From the NCBI RefSeq assembly GCF_024363255.1, contig NZ_AP026070.1:248001-312000 (forward strand): a stretch of 64,000 nt of DNA. The letters run 5' to 3'. Made by a program: the position numbers and the translations under genes. The stretch comes from Shewanella sp. NFH-SH190041. Its GTDB lineage: Bacteria; Pseudomonadota; Gammaproteobacteria; Enterobacterales; Shewanellaceae. Positions 43,480 to 58,790 of this stretch are shown here, piece after piece; the stretch's first letter is position 1; the number at the start of each line of letters is the position of its first letter. The notes under the pieces are model-generated. The model searched no databases. It was not told the origin of the DNA and saw only the letters and a list, made by a program, of their open reading frames with translations.

Positions 43480-44250
43480 CCCTTCGTGCACTTCGTGTAG
43501 CAAACGCAGTTTGTGCTTCGTGGTGATCCGCTATTGGCTTTTACAAGCAGAATCAAAAGCTTTAACCACGAAGGACACGAAGAGCACGAAGAAGAGCAAA
43601 ATCACAAGCTAGGACTTGTTGTTTTTTCTTATCTTTTTCCTTCGTGCACTTCGTGTAGCAAACGCAGTTTGCGCTTCGTGGTGATCCGCTGTTAGCTTTT
43701 TCAAGCAGAATCAAAAGCTTTAACCACGGCGAATATGGCGCAGCCATTTGCTTATGAGCGAGAGCCAAGGATTGGCGAACTGGCTTTTTAACAGGGATGT
43801 TATTGAGCACGAAGAAGGGCAAAAGCGTTAAAAATAAAAAGCTTTGAGCTTTTCTTGCTCTTACGTCTTTATTTTCCCTTTGTGATCTTCGTGTAGCAAA
43901 CACAGTTTGTACTTCGCGGTGAGCTGCTGTTGGCATTTACAAGCAGAATCAAAAGCTTTAACCACGGCGAATATGGCGCAGCCATTTGCTTATGAGCGAG
44001 AGCTAGGGATTGGCGAGCTGGCTGTTATACATGGATGTATTTGCGCTACGCTCACGGCGAATATGGCGCAGCCATTTGCTTATGAGCGAGAGCCAAGGAT
44101 TGGCGAACTGGCTTTTTAACAGGGATGTTATTGGACACGAAGAGTACGAAGAAGAGCAAAGACCTTTAATCACAACAGCTTTGTTCTTGCTTTGATCTTT
44201 ACCCTTCGTGCACTTCGTGTAGCAAACGCAGTTTGCGCTTCGTGGTGAAC
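43480..44250. repeat. CACGAAG-family repeats with nested second repeat (right cluster)
   Basis: Several arms reading CTTCGTGCACTTCGTGTAGC, AAACGCAGTTTGCGCTTCGTGGT and ACCACGAAGGACACGAAGAG, in orientation opposite to the cluster at 39.8-40.3 kb. Two of the units have the nested GGCGAATATGGCGCAGCC module in the middle (43723-43807 single, 43961-44133 double). No gene is supported. Confidence 0.8.
43961..44133. repeat. 173-bp doublet repeat, right inverted copy
   Basis: Reverse complement of 40055-40227, about 95% identical by my hand alignment. Together the pair brackets 3.7 kb holding the AbgT-family gene and the lytic transglycosylase gene. Confidence 0.85.
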
Positions 44251-46727: not shown

Positions 46728-47657
46728 ATGACGATTGATACCCATATTGACCAATTTTTTGGTATGGACATTGAGAATTTTGATGCTGAGCAGGGAATTA
46801 AAAATAGCCAAATAGCTATTAAAATCAGCAGTGATGATGATAACTATGATGATACTGGGTTATTTCAGCAGCAAATGGCTAAATTGCTGAGCGATAGCAA
46901 ATTGCCTGAGGTCCAAGCATTGATCGTTGGCGCTTGGCCTGAGGCGTATGATGAAAGTGCGCAGGTTTATATCGATATGCTGCTGGCCAATGCGGATAAG
47001 CTGGAAAATATCAAAGCATTATTTATTGGCGAAATGACCTACGAAGAAAATGAGATATCTTGGATTGTCCAAGGTGATTATGCCCGCGTGTGGTCAGCTT
47101 TTCCGGCATTAACGCATATGCAAATTCGAGGTGGGCAGTCTTTAACCCTGTCTTTGGGTGAGCAAAGCGCCCTGAAAACTTTAATTGTTGAATCCGGTGG
47201 TTTGCCTGCAAGTGTGGTTAATGAAGTTGCCACATGTCAGATGCCAGAACTGACCCATTTGGAGTTATGGTTGGGGACAGAGGATTATGGTTGGGATGGT
47301 AATATTGATACCGTATTGCCATTACTGTCAGCAACAAAATTCCCTAAGCTGACACATTTAGCTATTAAGAATAGTGAAATTCAATCAGAGATATTATCCG
47401 CTGTGCTTGACAGTGATATTCTGTCGCAATTGACCCATATTAATATGTCAATGGGGATATTAACGGATGCTGATGCACAATTACTATTGGATAACAAAGC
47501 TAAATTAGCCGATAAAATTATTGATGTATCTCAAAACTACCTCAGTGATGTCATGGTGCTTAGATTAAAAGAAAATTTAAATGTTATTACCGATGATCAA
47601 GGTGAAGTCGAGAGTTATGATGGTGAAGATTATTATTATGTTTCGGTCGCTGAATAA
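46728..47657 (+). CDS. STM4015-family leucine-rich-repeat-like protein, paralogue 1
   Basis: The start used gives MTIDTHIDQFFGM after GAGG; an upstream TTG would add 15 residues. The 309-residue protein has no signal peptide. From about residue 100 it shows repeated units of the form LTHLxLWLG and LTHLAIKNSEI, as in leucine-rich-repeat solenoids. The C-terminal 25 residues are an acidic linker ending in YVSVAE. It is about half identical by eye to the next gene. Members of this family occur beside STM4014, STM4013 and the radical SAM proteins STM4012/STM4011, but no function is established to my knowledge. It may be the substrate or scaffold of those enzymes. Confidence 0.8.
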   Translation: MTIDTHIDQFFGMDIENFDAEQGIKNSQIAIKISSDDDNYDDTGLFQQQMAKLLSDSKLPEVQALIVGAWPEAYDESAQVYIDMLLANADKLENIKALFIGEMTYEENEISWIVQGDYARVWSAFPALTHMQIRGGQSLTLSLGEQSALKTLIVESGGLPASVVNEVATCQMPELTHLELWLGTEDYGWDGNIDTVLPLLSATKFPKLTHLAIKNSEIQSEILSAVLDSDILSQLTHINMSMGILTDADAQLLLDNKAKLADKIIDVSQNYLSDVMVLRLKENLNVITDDQGEVESYDGEDYYYVSVAE

Positions 47658-47780
47658 TTAAGAATTAATATTAATATATTTTTCCAGTTGTTATTTTTAA
47701 GTAGTAACTGGTTATTCTTTATTGATAAAAATCATATTTATATAAAATCAAAATTTAAAGTTTATTGTTGGAGTATTCCA

Positions 47781-48704
47781 GTGGCAATTCGTAAGTATAT
47801 TAGTGAATTTTATAATTTACCTATTGAACAGTATAACCCTGAAAATGGTGTTAAAAATGAGAATGCAGCGATCAGATTAAGTTCTTATCAAGAAACTGAA
47901 GAATTAATCGAAAGTTTAATACAAGATCCTAAAATTGATAAAATTCAAGCAATTATTCTTGGGATGTGGTCTGAATGGTGTAGTGATGAATCGGATCAAA
48001 CCTATATTGATTTTTTGATTGCCAATGTTGATAAGCTCACAAATTTAAAAGCTCTGTTTTTTGGTGAAATGACTTTTTATGACTGTGAGATTTCTTGGAT
48101 CCAACAGGGAGATTACTCTCGCCTTTGGGCGGCATTGCCAAACTTACAACATTTACAAATTCGTGGCGCTGATGGACTTTCATTGGGGACTATTCCACAG
48201 AATCAATTGACCCATTTGATTATTGAGTCTGGTGGTTTGCATAAGGCTGTATTATCAGAAATTGCTCAAGGCTTATGGCCGCAATTGCAGCATCTGGAAT
48301 TATGGCTTGGCTGTAGTGAATATGGCTGGAATGGTGATATTAGTACCGTGACCCCGTTATTATCCGCAGCATTATTGCCAAAATTGACTACGTTGGCATT
48401 GAAAAATAGTGAGATCCAGCCACAAATTCTGGCGGCACTCATTAGTAGTGACATATTACCGCAACTGACCGAGATCGATATGTCGATGGGAATTTTAGGT
48501 GATAAAGAGGCGGAATTAATTTTACAGCACAAGGACAAATTCAGTGGTAAGAAACTGAATCTATCAGAAAATTTTCTCTCGACGCCTATGGTTGAAAAAC
48601 TGCAAGCCTGTCTTGATGTGATTGCTGATGAGCAGGAATATGACGAATTAGATGAAGAGGATTTGGATGATGAAGATTGTCGCTATGTTTCGGTAGCTGA
48701 ATAA
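47781..48704 (+). CDS. STM4015-family leucine-rich-repeat-like protein, paralogue 2
   Basis: The start used is GTG after TTGGAG, giving MAIRKYISEFYNLP, which aligns with the N terminus of paralogue 1. The upstream frame of 31 codons has no counterpart there. The 307 residues share GVKNENAAIRLSS-like, LTTLALKNSEI and DMSMGIL segments with paralogue 1. The C terminus is a different, very acidic linker (DELDEEDLDDED) followed by the same YVSVAE. It ends 10 bp before the STM4014-like gene, which links the paralogues with the enzyme genes downstream. Confidence 0.8.
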   Translation: MAIRKYISEFYNLPIEQYNPENGVKNENAAIRLSSYQETEELIESLIQDPKIDKIQAIILGMWSEWCSDESDQTYIDFLIANVDKLTNLKALFFGEMTFYDCEISWIQQGDYSRLWAALPNLQHLQIRGADGLSLGTIPQNQLTHLIIESGGLHKAVLSEIAQGLWPQLQHLELWLGCSEYGWNGDISTVTPLLSAALLPKLTTLALKNSEIQPQILAALISSDILPQLTEIDMSMGILGDKEAELILQHKDKFSGKKLNLSENFLSTPMVEKLQACLDVIADEQEYDELDEEDLDDEDCRYVSVAE

Positions 48705-48714
48705 CCGTTTGCTT

Positions 48715-49863
48715 ATGTCTACAACAGATCCCGATACTTTGTGGTTGTTTATCGGCAATCCAGAAAACCGTCGCTGTGAGTTTTTTCTCGCAGCGCTGTC
48801 AACGCATAGCCAACGGCATATTATTAGTTACCAGCAATTGCTGGCTGCAGATGATATTGCCGGTATGTTGATTGCACAATTGGCTCCTTTTCAGTTTTCT
48901 CGACTTAATATCAAAATTGACTCGGCCGGCGAAAATTTTGCTGTTGAAAAAGCCCTGTTGTGTCAGGTTAATCTGCCACGATATCAGGCATTAGTCGATG
49001 ATAAGGGGCGCTTTGCCCATTTGCATGATTGGTTCAACGGATTTTCGGCGCTGCTGATACGACTAGAAAATGCCTTACTGGAAGTGTTACTGCAGCGACA
49101 ATTACCCCGTGACAGTTTGCACTATCTTAATACTCCGGCAGCCATCACCCTGATGACGGATAAGCTGGCTTGTCAACGGCATTTACTGCGCTGCGGGGTC
49201 GCTGTGCCGGCCTTATTACCCCAGATGCAGAGTTTTAGCCAGTTAGTGGCCTATATGATGCAACAGCGCTGTTTTCAGGTGTTTATCAAAACGCGTTTTG
49301 GTTCTTCCGCTTCCGGGGTTGTGGCCTTGCGCCTATCTCCTCGGGGACAGATGGTAGCCCGCACCAGTTTGGAGTTGGTTACGGACGGTACGGCATATAG
49401 TTTTTATAACTCTCTAAAAATTCGTACTTACCAACATCCAGATCAGATTGCTCTGTTATTTGATGCCATTATTGCGCAGCAAGGGTATGTGGAGCGTTGG
49501 CAGCCTAAACCTGTCCTGCAAGGTAAGCATTTTGATCTTCGTATTGTGGTTCTGGGTGGAAAAGCCATGCATTACATTGCGCGTTGCAGTAGTTCACCGA
49601 TGACAAACCTACATTTAGGTAACTGTCGTGGTGATATTTTGCAGTTGGAGAATGGCCCGCAGTTGCTGGCCCAAGCGAAACAGGTTGCAGAGCAAGCTGC
49701 CGCTTGTATACCTGGTGCTGGTTGTATTGGTGCTGATGTTATTTGTGCCGCTAAAGGCGCTAAGGTGATCGAGCTTAATGCCTTTGGCGATCTGCTTCCC
49801 AATGTATTGCATCAGGGGCTAAGCAGTTATGAGGCGCAAGTTAGGTTGATGTCATGCTGCTGA
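48715..49863 (+). CDS. STM4014-family ATP-grasp-like protein
   Basis: I take the ATG giving MSTTDPDTLWLF, since the TTG two codons earlier is weak. About 382 residues. An FIKTRFGSSASGV glycine-rich loop (about residues 190-205) resembles the ATP-binding loop of ATP-grasp ligases. IELNAFGDLLPN near the C terminus supplies the Glu/Asn metal ligands typical of that fold. ATP-grasp enzymes join carboxylates to amines or other nucleophiles via acyl phosphates. In this cluster it may ligate or tailor the C terminus of the STM4015 proteins, but that is inference. Confidence 0.75.
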   Translation: MSTTDPDTLWLFIGNPENRRCEFFLAALSTHSQRHIISYQQLLAADDIAGMLIAQLAPFQFSRLNIKIDSAGENFAVEKALLCQVNLPRYQALVDDKGRFAHLHDWFNGFSALLIRLENALLEVLLQRQLPRDSLHYLNTPAAITLMTDKLACQRHLLRCGVAVPALLPQMQSFSQLVAYMMQQRCFQVFIKTRFGSSASGVVALRLSPRGQMVARTSLELVTDGTAYSFYNSLKIRTYQHPDQIALLFDAIIAQQGYVERWQPKPVLQGKHFDLRIVVLGGKAMHYIARCSSSPMTNLHLGNCRGDILQLENGPQLLAQAKQVAEQAAACIPGAGCIGADVICAAKGAKVIELNAFGDLLPNVLHQGLSSYEAQVRLMSCC

Positions 49864-50483
49864 TTTTTGATTTAGATAATACTCTGATCGATCGAGATGC
49901 GGCTTTTGTGTGTTTAATTAAGCAGCTATTTAACCATTATCAGCAACCGCTGCCGCAGGTTGAATTAGCGTTAATTTTGCAGCAGGATAACCATGGCCGG
50001 ACACCAAGACGCCCCTTTTGCCATTTTTTGATGCAGAGGTATGCTTTTTTACCGCAAGTGTTTGCTGAGCTATGGCAGCACTTTACCCATCTGCCAGACT
50101 TTATTACACCGGATTATCCCTTACAGCAAATGCTGACCCGCTTGGCTACCAAGCATGAGCTAAGGCTGCTGACCAATGGCAGTATCAGTATGCAAGAGGC
50201 CAAGCTTCAGCAGGCGCAATTGAGCGGTTTTTTTTCCAAAATTGTGATTTCAGAGGCTGTTGGGTTCAGTAAGCCGCAAACAGCTATTTTTCACCATATT
50301 CTTGGTGCCTGCCCCCCGGCGCAGAGCATGATGATCGGTGATGATCCACTGCGGGATATTGCGCCTGCCGTCCAGTTGGGAATGGGGACGGTTTGGGTCT
50401 CGCCGCAGCCTGATCCTAAGGTCACTTGCAGTGCCCACATCGCTTCCATTTACCAATTAGAACAGATACTCACCCATGCTTGA
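49854..50483 (+). CDS. HAD-superfamily phosphatase inside the STM4011-4015 cluster
   Basis: A 209-residue HAD-IA hydrolase: nucleophile motif FDLDNTLIDRD at the N terminus, LLTNGS for motif II, KPQTAIF carrying the motif III Lys, and IGDDPLRDI for motif IV, with a helical cap between. It overlaps both neighbours (10 nt before, 8 nt after), so it is translated as part of the operon. It is not among the five families I associate with this neighbourhood, and it could act on a phosphorylated intermediate made there. Confidence 0.85.
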   Translation: MLLIFDLDNTLIDRDAAFVCLIKQLFNHYQQPLPQVELALILQQDNHGRTPRRPFCHFLMQRYAFLPQVFAELWQHFTHLPDFITPDYPLQQMLTRLATKHELRLLTNGSISMQEAKLQQAQLSGFFSKIVISEAVGFSKPQTAIFHHILGACPPAQSMMIGDDPLRDIAPAVQLGMGTVWVSPQPDPKVTCSAHIASIYQLEQILTHA

Positions 50484-51279
50484 TATGAACCAGATTGTTG
50501 GCAGCCATGATATTGTGCTGTTGACCTTGGATACCCTGAGATTTGATGTCGCTCAGCGGGAGTTGGCCCAGGGCAATTTACCAGTATTGTCGCGCTATAT
50601 TTCAGCCTGGCAGCCGCGCCACAGCCCCGGCAGTTTTACCTACGCGGCACACCATGCCATTTTTGCTGGATTTTTCCCGACTGAGATTGATAATCCTGCC
50701 GCGCCCCGGTTGATGGCGGTGGATTTTAATGGCAGCCGAACCATTGACCCTCGCACCCGGGTTTTTAATGAGGCCAATATTGTGGCAGGGCTGGCTCAGG
50801 CCGGTTATTTCACTCTCTGTATTGGTGGGGTGGGGTTCTTTAATAAAAAGACCCCTTTGGGGATGACGTTGCCGGGCCTATTTCAGCAAAGTTACTGGGC
50901 GGAAAACACAGGTGTGACCGATCCGGCCTCGACCTTTAATCAGATTGAGATGGCAAAACAATTGCTGGATCAGCAGCAGGGGCAAAAAGCCTTTTTGTTT
51001 ATCAATGTGTCAGCCATTCATCAGCCTAATTACTTTTATCAATATTCCAATAAACAGCCGGATGATATTGAGTCCCATGGGGCGGCGCTGCGTTATGTCG
51101 ATAGCCAGTTAGCTAACCTGTTTGATTATTTCAAACAGCGCCGAAATACCTTGTTTATTCTCTGTTCTGATCATGGCACCTGCTATGGCGAGCAGGGTTA
51201 TGTGGGTCATCGTCTGGCCCATAACAATGTCTGGACCGTGCCTTACGCCGAATTTATCCAAAGAGCAGTAGTAGAATGA
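50476..51279 (+). CDS. STM4013-family sulfatase-fold hydrolase
   Basis: A 267-residue protein of the alkaline phosphatase/sulfatase superfamily. Metal-binding segments are LLTLDTLRFD near the N terminus and CSDHGTCYGEQGYVGHRLAHN near the C terminus. The nucleophile region reads SFTYAAHHAIFAG, with Ser53/Thr55 where sulfatases have a Cys or Ser that becomes formylglycine. The CxPxR maturation motif is absent, so a phosphohydrolase or phosphodiesterase activity seems likelier. There is no signal peptide. It overlaps its neighbours by 8 and 4 nt. Confidence 0.78.
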   Translation: MLDMNQIVGSHDIVLLTLDTLRFDVAQRELAQGNLPVLSRYISAWQPRHSPGSFTYAAHHAIFAGFFPTEIDNPAAPRLMAVDFNGSRTIDPRTRVFNEANIVAGLAQAGYFTLCIGGVGFFNKKTPLGMTLPGLFQQSYWAENTGVTDPASTFNQIEMAKQLLDQQQGQKAFLFINVSAIHQPNYFYQYSNKQPDDIESHGAALRYVDSQLANLFDYFKQRRNTLFILCSDHGTCYGEQGYVGHRLAHNNVWTVPYAEFIQRAVVE

Positions 51280-52634
51280 CCCAGCAACAATATGCATTAC
51301 AGGGGCTGTTAAATAGCCCGGTTTATCAGGCTTATGCCTACTCTTATCCCCATAAAATGGCTTATCGCCCTTTCAGCGATAAAGTGGCGCTGCGCGAGAT
51401 TTGGCAGCAAGAAAAACTCGATGCGCTGTACCTGTATGTCCACATTCCTTTTTGTAAAATCCGCTGCGGGTTTTGCAATTTGTTTACCTTAGTTAAGCCA
51501 GATGACAGTTTGCCGGATCTGTATTTGGATGCTCTGTCACGGCAGATTAATGCATTGGCTCCAGTGATAGAACAAGCGGGTTTTTCTCACTTCAGTATCG
51601 GTGGCGGCACCCCGACATATCTGGATGAAAAACAATTAGAGCGGCTCTTTACGCTGACGAGTTTTCCTGGCATTACTGCGGCAACGGCGAAAGGGATTGA
51701 GTGCTCTCCAGAAACTGTCACAGCAGGCAAGATCCAGCTGTTGGAGGCCAATAATATCCGCCGTATCAGTATGGGGGTGCAGTCATTTACCGAGCTGGAA
51801 GTGAAGAATTTAGCCCGGCGGCAGAATTTAGACCAAGTTATCAATGCGATAGAGACTATCCGCAGTCATAGCCAAGCTGATCTGAATTTGGACCTGATTT
51901 ATGGCATTCCCGGGCAGACGGTGGACTCTTGGCTGTACTCATTGGCTCAGGCGGTCTCTTTCCAGCCGGAAGAGTTGTATCTGTATCCTCTGTATGTGCG
52001 TGATGATACAGGGCTTGGCAAGGTGCTAAATAAACAGGGAACAGCAGATACGGCGGCGCAAACCCTTGATGAACATAAACTGATGCTATTTAGGGCTGGG
52101 CGAGATTATCTGCTAGCTAACGGATATCAGCAGATCTCTATGCGCATGTTCCGGCGGGTGGGATTGCCAGCGCATGATCAGGCAAATTATTCTTGCCAAC
52201 GGGACGGCATGTTAGGGCTAGGCGCCGGTGCGCGTTCTTATACCAATAGCCTGCATTACTCCTCCGAATATGCAGTAGATCGCCATAGTATCCGGGATAT
52301 TATCAGCCATTATCTGGCTCAGTCAGAAACCGATTTCAGCTTTGCTCATTATGGTATTAGGCTGGATTTGGAAGAGAAAAAACGCCGCTTTGTGATCCAG
52401 TCTTTACTGATCGCTGATGGGCTGAATTTAGCTGATTACCATGCCCGTTTTCATTGCGACTGTTTAGTGGAGTTCCCTTTGCTTAATACTTTGCTGCAGG
52501 CGCAATTTGCTGTGCGGCAAGGCGATGTGATGCAACTGACGCCCAGCGGATTTGAGCGGGCAGACAGTATTGGCCCTTGGTTTGTATCCGACAAGGTGAA
52601 ACAGGCGATGGCAGAGTATCGCACGGGATGCTGA
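51276..52634 (+). CDS. STM4012-family radical SAM protein (HemN-like)
   Basis: A 452-residue radical SAM enzyme starting within the STM4013 stop (ATGA). The cluster motif is HIPFCKIRCGFC (CxxxCxxC), followed by SIGGGTPTYL and ECSPETVTAGK, and NLDLIYGIPGQT, all as in the HemN/coproporphyrinogen dehydrogenase group, and a winged C-terminal HemN-like domain. Heme synthesis is unlikely because of the neighbourhood. It probably performs a radical reaction on a partner of this cluster. Confidence 0.85.
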   Translation: MTQQQYALQGLLNSPVYQAYAYSYPHKMAYRPFSDKVALREIWQQEKLDALYLYVHIPFCKIRCGFCNLFTLVKPDDSLPDLYLDALSRQINALAPVIEQAGFSHFSIGGGTPTYLDEKQLERLFTLTSFPGITAATAKGIECSPETVTAGKIQLLEANNIRRISMGVQSFTELEVKNLARRQNLDQVINAIETIRSHSQADLNLDLIYGIPGQTVDSWLYSLAQAVSFQPEELYLYPLYVRDDTGLGKVLNKQGTADTAAQTLDEHKLMLFRAGRDYLLANGYQQISMRMFRRVGLPAHDQANYSCQRDGMLGLGAGARSYTNSLHYSSEYAVDRHSIRDIISHYLAQSETDFSFAHYGIRLDLEEKKRRFVIQSLLIADGLNLADYHARFHCDCLVEFPLLNTLLQAQFAVRQGDVMQLTPSGFERADSIGPWFVSDKVKQAMAEYRTGC

Positions 52635-53482
52635 TCGATATTACCTACCGTGGGCCACTGGCCAGTTGTAATTACAGTTGTGGTTACTGCCCGTTTGCCA
52701 CCATGGTGGACTCGGCGGCTACCCGGCAACGGGATAAACAGGCGCTGACACGTTTTTATCACTGGCTAACAGCCCAACCTGTAGGGCGACGATTTAGAAT
52801 ATTGTTTACCCCTTGGGGGGAGGCGCTTGTAAAGAGTTGGTATCGGCAGGCAGTAGTGGCGATATCCCAGTTGCCGAATGTGCAGCAGTTGGTGGTGCAG
52901 ACTAATTTAAGTGGCGAGACAGCTTGGCTAGCGGCCGCAAATCGGCAAGCTGTGGCGCTGTGGATTACTTATCATCCGACTCAGGTGTCTTTGGCCGCAT
53001 TTATCTCTCAAACCAAGCAGTTGGATGCACTGGGGATCAATTACAGTGTGGGCTGTGTCGGCATGAAAGCCCATAAAGCGGAAATTGCGGCACTGCGCCT
53101 GCAGTTACCTGAATCTATTTATCTCTGGGTGAATGCATTTAAGGATGAGGCGGATTATTACTGCGCAGAGGATATTGCATTTTTTCAGCAGATTGACCCG
53201 CTGTTTCAGCTTAATTTGACTGATTACCCCAGCCAGGGACAGGCATGCCGCGCTGGTGTGTCGGCATTGTCTCTTGATGGTGAGGGCAATGTCCGCCCTT
53301 GCCATTTTGTCTCTGAGATTCAAGGTAATATCTACCGAGATGATTTAGAGCAGATCTTGCACTCACAATACCAGTGCCCTAATCGGCAGTGTGATTGTTA
53401 TATCGGTTATATCCATCTAGAGCAGTTGAGATTGGAGCAAGTCTACGGCGACAACATCCTCGCCAGGATCCCAATAAACTAG
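52628..53482 (+). CDS. STM4011-family radical SAM protein with C-terminal Cys cluster
   Basis: The start used is the ATG at 52628, giving MLIDITYRGPLASCNYSCGYC and a 7-nt overlap with the preceding gene. The 284 residues have the radical SAM motif CNYSCGYC at about 14-21. The C-terminal third has Cys residues in QACRAG, RPCHF, YQCPNRQCDC, the pattern of an auxiliary Fe-S cluster in SPASM/twitch-type enzymes that modify peptides or proteins. It is the last gene of the run. Its stop codon TAG lies in the CTAG flanking a MITE. Confidence 0.85.
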   Translation: MLIDITYRGPLASCNYSCGYCPFATMVDSAATRQRDKQALTRFYHWLTAQPVGRRFRILFTPWGEALVKSWYRQAVVAISQLPNVQQLVVQTNLSGETAWLAAANRQAVALWITYHPTQVSLAAFISQTKQLDALGINYSVGCVGMKAHKAEIAALRLQLPESIYLWVNAFKDEADYYCAEDIAFFQQIDPLFQLNLTDYPSQGQACRAGVSALSLDGEGNVRPCHFVSEIQGNIYRDDLEQILHSQYQCPNRQCDCYIGYIHLEQLRLEQVYGDNILARIPIN

Positions 53483-53769: not shown

Positions 53770-54735
53770 CAAGCAGCATGCATTAGAGAGAAAATCACAA
53801 GCTAGGACTTGTTGTTTTTCCTTATCTTTTCCCTTCGTGCACTTCGTGTAGCAAATGCAGTTTGCGCTTCGTGGTAGGTCGCTGTTAGTCATTAAAAAAG
53901 CCAAAAGCTATCACCACAAAGGACACGAAGAGCACGAAGAAAAGCAAAGTCACAAGCTAAGATTGTGCCCTGTTCTTACTCTTACGCTTTTCTTTATTTT
54001 TCCCTTCGTGCACTTCGTGTAGCAAACGTAGTTTGCGCTTCGTGGTAGGTCGCTGTTAGTCGTTAAAAAAACCAAAAGCTATCACCACGAAGGACACGAA
54101 GAGCACGAAGGAAAGCAAAATCAAAAGCTAAGATTGTGCCCTGTTCTTACTTTTACGCTTTTCTTTATTTTTCCCTTCGTGCACTTCGTGTAGCAAATGC
54201 AGTTTGCGCTTCGTGGTAGGTCACTGTTAGCAGTTAAAAAAACCAAAAGCTATCACTACAAAGGACACGAAGAGCACGAAGAAAAGCAAAATCAAAAGCT
54301 AAGATTGTGCCCTGTTCTTACTTTTACGCTTTTCTTTATTTTTCCCTTCGTGCACTTCGTGTAGCAAATGCAGTTTGCGCTTCGTGGTAGGTCGCTGTTA
54401 GCAGTTAAAAAAGCCAAAAGCTATCACTACAAAGGACACGAAGAGCACGAAGAAGAGCAAAATAAAAAGCTAAGATTGTGCCCTGTTCTTACTCTTACGC
54501 TTTTCTTTATTTTTCCCTTCATGCACTTCGTGTAGCAAACGCAGTTTGCGCTTCGTGGTAGGTTGCTGTTAGCAGTTAAAAAAACCAAAAGCTATCACCA
54601 CAAAGGACACGAAGTGCATGAAGAAAAGCAAAATCAAAAGCTAAGATTGTGCCCTGTTCTTACTCTTACGCTTTTCTTTATTTTTCACTTCGTGCACTTC
54701 GTGTAGCAAATGCAGTTTGCGCTTCGTGGTGATCT
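53770..54735. repeat. Tandem array of CACGAAG-family repeats, 171-bp period
   Basis: Five units start with CCAAAAGCTATCAC(C/T)AC at 53901, 54072, 54243, 54414 and 54585, exactly 171 bp apart each time, preceded by a diverged partial unit. Each unit contains GGACACGAAGAGCACGAAG, a middle of about 70 bp, then CTTCGTGCACTTCGTGTAGC, the mini-palindrome GCAAACGCAGTTTGC and GCTTCGTGGT. It ends about 45 bp before the cysN stop codon. No gene is supported inside. Confidence 0.9.
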
Positions 54736-58071: not shown

Positions 58072-58159
58072 CCTGAATCAGTTTGAATGACTGTACCATT
58101 CCCGTATAGCGCTGACACCCTTTTAGCTTTTAACTGATATTGTCGCGGTAGATATTTTT

Positions 58160-58790
58160 TTGCTATTCGTGGTAGGTCGTTGTTAGCAGTTAAAACACCA
58201 AAAGCTACCACCACAAAGGACATAAAGAGCACGAAGAAGAGCACAATCACAAGCTAGAACTTGTTGTCTTTTTTTATTTTTCCCTTCGTGAACTTCGTGT
58301 AGCAAACGCAGTTTGCGCTTCGTGGTAGGTCGCTGTTAGTCGTTAAAAAAAACAAAATCTATCACCACAAAGGACACGAAGAGCACGAAGAAGAACAAAA
58401 TTACAAGCTAAGATTGTGCTCTGTTCTTACGCTTTTCTTTATTTTTCCCTTCGTGCACTTCGTGTAGTAAACGTAGTTTACGCTTCGTGGTAGGTCGCTG
58501 TTAGTCGTTAAAAAACCAAAAGCTATCACCACAAAGGACACGAAGAGCACGAAGAAGTGCAAAATCACAAGCTAAGATTGTGCTCTGTTCTTACGCTTTT
58601 CTTTATTTTTCCCTTCGTGCACTTCGTGCAGCAAACGCAGTTTGCGCTTCGTGGTAGGTCGCTGTTAGTCGTTAAAAAAACAAAAGCTATCACCACAAAG
58701 GACACGAAGAGCACGAAGAAGAGCAAAATCACAAGCTAAGATTGTGCTCTGTTCTTACTCTTACTTTTTTCTTTATTTTTCCCTTCGTGG
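58160..58790. repeat. Second array of CACGAAG-family repeats
   Basis: Four units begin at about 58198, 58352, 58516 and 58680 with spacing of 154, 164 and 164 bp, in the same orientation as the 53.8 kb array. Some units share GGACACGAAGAGCACGAAGA and CTTCGTGTAGCAAACGCAG with it. The period is shorter than 171, mainly in the middle. The two arrays form direct repeats on either side of cysQDN. Confidence 0.88.

Follow-up and report, generated by a model that had tools for sequence, protein, structure and literature searches.

In the closest described system the C-terminal Glu of the carrier protein LysW is linked by LysX, an E54A mutation in ArgW abolishes function, and carriers of the LysW type end in the motif EDWGE (the accessible part of PMC10433800). 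Pearlins, in turn, are amino acids that are modified while carried by a peptide (PMC9303977, likewise a partial text). Here we describe a seven-gene cluster of the STM4011-STM4015 type in Shewanella sp. NFH-SH190041, lying within a window of 64,000 nucleotides (contig NZ_AP026070.1, positions 248,001 to 312,000), by which is meant the whole stretch of DNA analysed. We suggest, with about even confidence, that the cluster attaches a small-molecule group to the C-terminal Glu of a leucine-rich-repeat (LRR) protein, STM4015, and remodels it there, the group probably being retained. An earlier sequence-only reading had proposed that this solenoid protein is the substrate or scaffold of a modification pathway; to this we add the C-terminal Glu as the likely site, STM4014 as the partner of the LRR protein and LysW as the closest precedent.

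The names STM4011-STM4015 occur in print in a listing (PMC2784778, seen in part), and STM4013 is the entry under which a sigma-54 site is listed in the accessible part of PMC3844500. Searching the literature by family name, with no preprints and few subscription papers covered, gave passing mentions and no function, and a search joining radical S-adenosylmethionine (SAM) enzymes with LysW or C-terminal glutamate carriers gave nothing naming this system. The names of the NCBI families carry no assigned activity, in line with the sequence-only reading.

RESULTS

The Cluster and Its Families

To obtain relatives, GTDB species genomes were scanned with an STM4011 alignment, which gave at least 587 confirmed places; the loci referred to below are the best 80 of these, and a gene was scored as present in a locus at hits of at least 45 bits. 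Motif counts cover the window plus those loci over the score limit (67 for STM4013, 71 for STM4012, 62 for STM4014, and 79 for STM4011). The cluster runs from 46728 to 53482 of the window on the + strand and consists, in order, of two STM4015 genes, STM4014 (ATP-grasp), a HAD phosphatase gene, STM4013, STM4012, and STM4011.

46728-47657, + strand: STM4015 copy 1, an LRR protein and proposed substrate
47637-47654, + strand: codons of the YVSVAE tail of copy 1, the last Glu being the proposed reaction site (from the sequence and the Glu-ended listed relatives)
47781-48704, + strand: STM4015 copy 2, the second proposed substrate, its GTG start picked by eye (NF038076, 275.7 bits)
48684-48701, + strand: codons of the YVSVAE tail of copy 2 (from the sequence)
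48715-49863, + strand: STM4014, an ATP-grasp protein and proposed C-terminal Glu ligase
49854-50483, + strand: HAD-IA phosphatase, an optional member (HAD_2, 70.4 bits; 13/80 loci)
50476-51279, + strand: STM4013, an alkaline-phosphatase-superfamily hydrolase with a Thr nucleophile (NF038075; Thr53 in 68/68)
51276-52634, + strand: STM4012, a HemN-like radical SAM enzyme (NF006067; CxxxCxxC in 72/72)
52628-53482, + strand: STM4011, a radical SAM enzyme whose Cys residues form a partial SPASM-like set (NF038073; eight Cys in 80/80)

All of the genes assigned to the cluster by the sequence-only reading are present, and five families exceed their NCBIfam cut-offs: STM4014 (323.1 bits against NF038074, cut-off 175), STM4013 (373.9 bits, cut-off 250), STM4012 (545.7 bits, cut-off 380), STM4011 (372.9 bits, cut-off 200), and STM4015, whose two copies score 295.2 and 275.7 bits against a cut-off of 275, so that copy 2 is barely over. 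The two copies preceding the enzymes are paralogues, as had been proposed, with 52% identity in the body and agreement at 6 of the last 7 residues. The overlaps of 4-10 nt described for the last five genes were also recovered, at 10 nt (STM4014/HAD), 8 nt (HAD/STM4013), 4 nt (STM4013/STM4012), and 7 nt (STM4012/STM4011) with the STM4011 ATG at 52628, the last being 1 nt with a later start.

STM4015 Ends in a Near-invariant Glutamate

The terminal residue is Glu in 120/120 of the STM4015 relatives listed, which are 120 of 349 and include the window's own. Their tails mostly read RYVxV[GAS]E and follow an acidic stretch, with Gly, Ser, or Ala at -2 in 117/120, Val at -3 in 115/120, Arg at -7 in 109/120, and Tyr (81/120) or Ser (12/120) at -6. 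In the loci, 82 STM4015 open reading frames (ORFs) score 90 bits or more, and 78 of them end in Glu; as a rough background, the same holds for 82 of the 1923 other mechanical ORFs there that are 200 residues or longer (4.3%). The final Glu is kept with little else of the tail in Salmonella (NAMYTE), Bacteroides (YPMITE), and Paenibacillus (YPSLTE).

This pattern bears on a change within the tail itself, of the kind made in ribosomally synthesized and post-translationally modified peptides, in which STM4011 and/or STM4012 would act on Tyr, Val, or Glu and STM4014 would form a bond within the protein. PqqE and MftC act on peptides, and both the SPASM-like Cys set of STM4011 and the frequent Val and Tyr at -3 and -6 speak for such a change; however, only the last Glu is common to STM4015, the Salmonella and Bacteroides proteins, and the Gemmataceae type described below, and Ser stands at -6 in part of the relatives, so that we regard this explanation as very improbable.

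Neighboring STM4015 copies were compared in 20 pairs, all of Glu-ended copies, a choice that favors agreement in the tail; mean identity is 48% in the body versus 65% in the last seven residues, and the last seven residues are the more similar part in 16 of the 20 pairs. Four further copies (L135-L138), which lie about 100 kb off, on separate contigs, or, in a Micromonospora genome (G071), on a contig too short to show linkage, also end in Glu. The main rival to our proposal is a true amino-group carrier, in which a molecule would be built on the terminal Glu of the LRR protein and then cut off, as happens when lysine and arginine are synthesized on LysW. It would share the C-terminal Glu logic, the ligase fold, and the acidic stretch ahead of the tail, and amino-group carriers are described in the part of PMC9303977 available. 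We nevertheless consider it unlikely, as the seven genes include no peptidase and diverged copies such as these pairs are hard to explain by it. An all-against-all comparison for a recurring extra gene, for example a release peptidase, returned mostly apparent shadow ORFs from high-G+C regions and included no family search, and is thus a weak negative.

STM4015 is a protein of 309 residues with no invariant Cys (55 sequences). Its AlphaFold 2 model is confident to the end (the last block has a predicted local distance difference test score of 93), and the crystal structure 2ra8 aligns through the last residue of the model. LRR proteins are often binding platforms, and a tail modeled with such confidence would suit a scaffold that merely docks, gathering the enzymes around a free small molecule; docking alone, however, would lead one to expect neither the invariance of the terminal residue nor a ligase whose fold is known for C-terminal Glu, and we find it quite improbable. 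The crystallized protein itself, Q64V53_BACFR of Bacteroides fragilis, differs from STM4015 in that about 70 residues precede the matching part, and the region preceding it is a WGR domain in a Bacteroides finegoldii relative. On a B. finegoldii plasmid (L176, 4513-8530), STM4015 with its N-terminal WGR domain stands with STM4014 and a long STM4011 protein; the STM4013-like piece there is short, and no STM4012 match was found in the 14.8-kb stretch.

STM4014 Is Exchanged Together with the LRR Protein in Gemmataceae

The top fold matches of the STM4014 structure model are ArgX-LysW, RimK, and LysX, which fits the ligation proposed for the ATP-grasp protein from sequence. By profile it scores 19.4 bits against the LysX model, far under the cut-off of 275.6, and 33.1 bits against rimK_fam, under the cut-off of 143.4; no PDB sequence related to STM4014 or STM4011 was found at E 0.001. 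Of 64 loci, 61 have the STM4015 and STM4014 genes next to each other, and in 17 the pair is shifted relative to STM4011.

In Gemmataceae loci STM4014 has been exchanged jointly with the LRR protein, while STM4011 is unchanged. The comparison rests on 10 variant loci in the case of STM4014 and 7 in that of STM4011 (Mann-Whitney, kinship uncorrected), and the two standard loci scoring lowest for STM4014, L084 and L069, were kept; a further comparison used 69 loci (7 variant), leaving out L132, which is on the same contig as L013. The Gemmataceae-type LRR proteins scoring at least 400 bits end in Glu in 22/22 cases, five of which built the profile, and ORFs of 80-400 bits to that profile do so in 4/6, one of these being a standard STM4015. 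Two loci (L023 and L126) have four consecutive Gemmataceae-type LRR genes each, all Glu-ended.

The Genes Occur Together across Many Phyla

STM4015 is present in 68 of the 80 loci, STM4014 in 64, STM4013 in 70, STM4012 in 75, and a HAD gene in 13. Whether STM4015, STM4014, and STM4013 always accompany STM4012 and STM4011, as had been asked, can be answered for the 55 loci in which 6 kb or more precede STM4011 and 4 kb or more follow it: all stand together in 50, which is usual and not universal. A genome-wide STM4015 search for the 12 loci lacking it, plus L035, where it is weak, gave a match in 12 of 13 genomes and one over the cut-off in 10; the genome with no match (G068, that of L046) is an Armatimonadetes assembly of ungiven completeness.

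In class samples drawn evenly, with the seed genome counted in, STM4011 is over the cut-off in 19 of 197 actinomycetes (the class of the Micromonospora genome), and STM4015 is over the cut-off in the same 19. In the class of a Cytophagales assembly (G062), STM4011 is over the cut-off in 2 of 247, and STM4015 matches only in the same 2, the match in the seed genome being interrupted by a stop codon and scoring below the cut-off. On contig C198 of this assembly (L101, L105; the genome of L020) STM4015 appears in two pieces that overlap, one of them with an internal TAG. A planctomycete sample searched for STM4011 alone gave 2 of 119, the seed again counted in. STM4011 without STM4015 is thus not found regularly, which supports computationally the proposal of the LRR protein as substrate or scaffold.

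The cluster is spread over many phyla, including Salmonella, Bacteroides, cyanobacteria, actinomycetes, and planctomycetes. STM4011 occurs in 13 plasmid records (11 predicted non-mobilizable, 2 mobilizable) and STM4015 in 14; five phage records have an STM4015 match, the one examined being a Salmonella contig with chromosomal neighbors. A myxobacterial genome (G072, that of L035) has 34 matches to the STM4015 model, nearly all weak and reflecting many LRR proteins, and one strong, Glu-ended copy of 318 bits.

Radical SAM Enzymes and Hydrolases

The CxxxCxxC motifs read as intact in both radical SAM enzymes are conserved throughout, in 72/72 STM4012 and 80/80 STM4011 sequences. In STM4011 eight Cys are invariant, the motif plus five more, in keeping with the auxiliary iron-sulfur cluster proposed for one of the two enzymes. 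The spacing of two of the extra Cys, C-x12-G-x4-C, is that seen where SPASM domains begin; the canonical SPASM set is larger than these five, and STM4011 scores 20.8 bits against SPASM, slightly under the Pfam cut-off of 21.5. STM4012 was considered as coproporphyrinogen oxidase or HemW and rejected, being under the HemN and HemW cut-offs (136.7/324.95 and 151.7/205.4) while passing its own family model.

For STM4013 the label of a sulfatase fold stands, and a formylglycine sulfatase does not: because Thr53 occupies the nucleophile position in 68/68, where sulfatases have Cys or Ser, it is not an enzyme of that kind. A SPASM-type radical SAM gene in the company of a sulfatase-fold gene would suggest that STM4011 is a sulfatase-maturing enzyme that makes formylglycine from a Cys or Ser in STM4013, and this we reject, as far as sequence can tell, on the same Thr, leaving it a practically negligible probability. 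The conserved Asp, Thr, and His of STM4013 are those expected of an alkaline-phosphatase-type site. Of the two hydrolases described for the cluster, both are encoded, and the HAD gene is no constant member. Its product scores 47.1 bits against a general HAD-IA model (cut-off 23.3) and is YjjG-like at 89.1 bits, under the YjjG cut-off of 159.9; the subclass is HAD-IA here versus Cof type in Salmonella. PADLOC defense models had no match for six of the seven proteins, and STM4012 has a partial match of 39.4 bits to the candidate PDC-M51A (residues 140-249), possibly only through the shared radical SAM barrel.

Setting in the Shewanella Genome

The G+C content of the STM4015 genes is 39.4% and 37.8% versus 47.5-49.9% for the five enzyme genes, and that of the 0.6 kb upstream of the cluster is 27.2%. 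In 60 genomes (its own included, 35 of the others being of the same genus) the STM4011 model is over the cut-off in its own genome only. The cluster was likely gained by transfer. Directly downstream, two tandem arrays that are apparently one repeat, both with CTTCGTG/CACGAAG arms, flank cysN/cysD-like genes (53816-54730, 171-bp period, 5.3 copies, 94% match; 58159-58789, 164 bp, 3.9 copies); ahead of the cluster lies a 90-bp repeat (43963-44128, 1.8 copies). An Rfam and tRNA search of the window found none.

DISCUSSION

Loading of the terminal Glu is favored because the residue is near-invariant, STM4014 has a ligase fold, the STM4015 and STM4014 genes are adjacent and exchanged jointly, and LysW offers a precedent. 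We infer the chemical steps and their order as follows. STM4014, with ATP, would activate a carboxylate of the C-terminal Glu of STM4015 and couple it to a small-molecule amine, the kind of reaction that LysX and ArgX carry out on LysW, and RimK on S6. STM4013, together with the HAD phosphatase in some lineages, might handle a phosphate-bearing precursor, which is a guess. STM4012 and STM4011 would next use radical chemistry to remodel the added group, which would most likely stay on STM4015, because the tail is more conserved than the body, distant copies keep the Glu, and no peptidase is among the seven genes. If it stays, LRR proteins of differing bodies would share one C-terminal chemical head.

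Several observations weigh against this proposal. Four of the 82 locus ORFs (L081, L085, L069, and L065) lack the terminal Glu, and in L081 a stretch carrying the tail sits in a different frame; the copy in G065 (L098/L109) extends beyond the tail; and an unlinked weak relative in the myxobacterial genome (L106) has no tail. The structure predictions, moreover, are of STM4014 and STM4015 as single chains, with no model of a complex.

A more specific form of the proposal, which we advance tentatively, is a protein-arming system in which shared enzymes, through ligation and radical chemistry, would equip LRR adaptors with a permanent prosthetic or signaling group at their C-terminal Glu. The variable bodies of the adaptors would aim this head at different partners, and the exchange of STM4014 with the adaptor class would let evolution couple the chemistry to new adaptors. 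If loading and remodeling on the terminal Glu are correct, LRR proteins would belong to the small number of known C-terminal Glu carriers, and a folded protein of some 300 residues would be the place where loading by an ATP-grasp enzyme is coupled to radical SAM chemistry; a named yet unexplained gene set would gain a role in protein modification.

As to known gene sets, all five STM4011-STM4015 families (NF038073, NF006067, NF038075, NF038074, and NF038076) pass, and the same genes occur in Salmonella; the Shewanella cluster differs in its duplicated STM4015 and in a HAD-IA instead of a Cof-type protein. With pearlins the cluster shares a C-terminal carrier logic and a radical SAM enzyme (PMC9303977, in the part available), and it differs in having no PEARL-type ligase among the seven genes, the proposed loader being an ATP-grasp protein. 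From RimK, the ribosomal protein S6 ligase, STM4014 is set apart by its score under the rimK_fam cut-off. LysW, LysX, and ArgX resemble the system most in mechanism, with a C-terminal Glu after acidic residues and an ATP-grasp partner of the same fold. STM4015, however, lacks EDWGE and is a sizeable LRR protein instead of a small one with zinc-binding Cys, and the seven genes encode radical SAM enzymes, not LysZ, LysY, LysJ, or LysK. It is not a member of the LysW family, because it has neither EDWGE nor a small zinc protein and the LysX and RimK models are far under their cut-offs; as judged from sequence, the cluster is a system that would work like an amino-group carrier system and yet stands outside that family.
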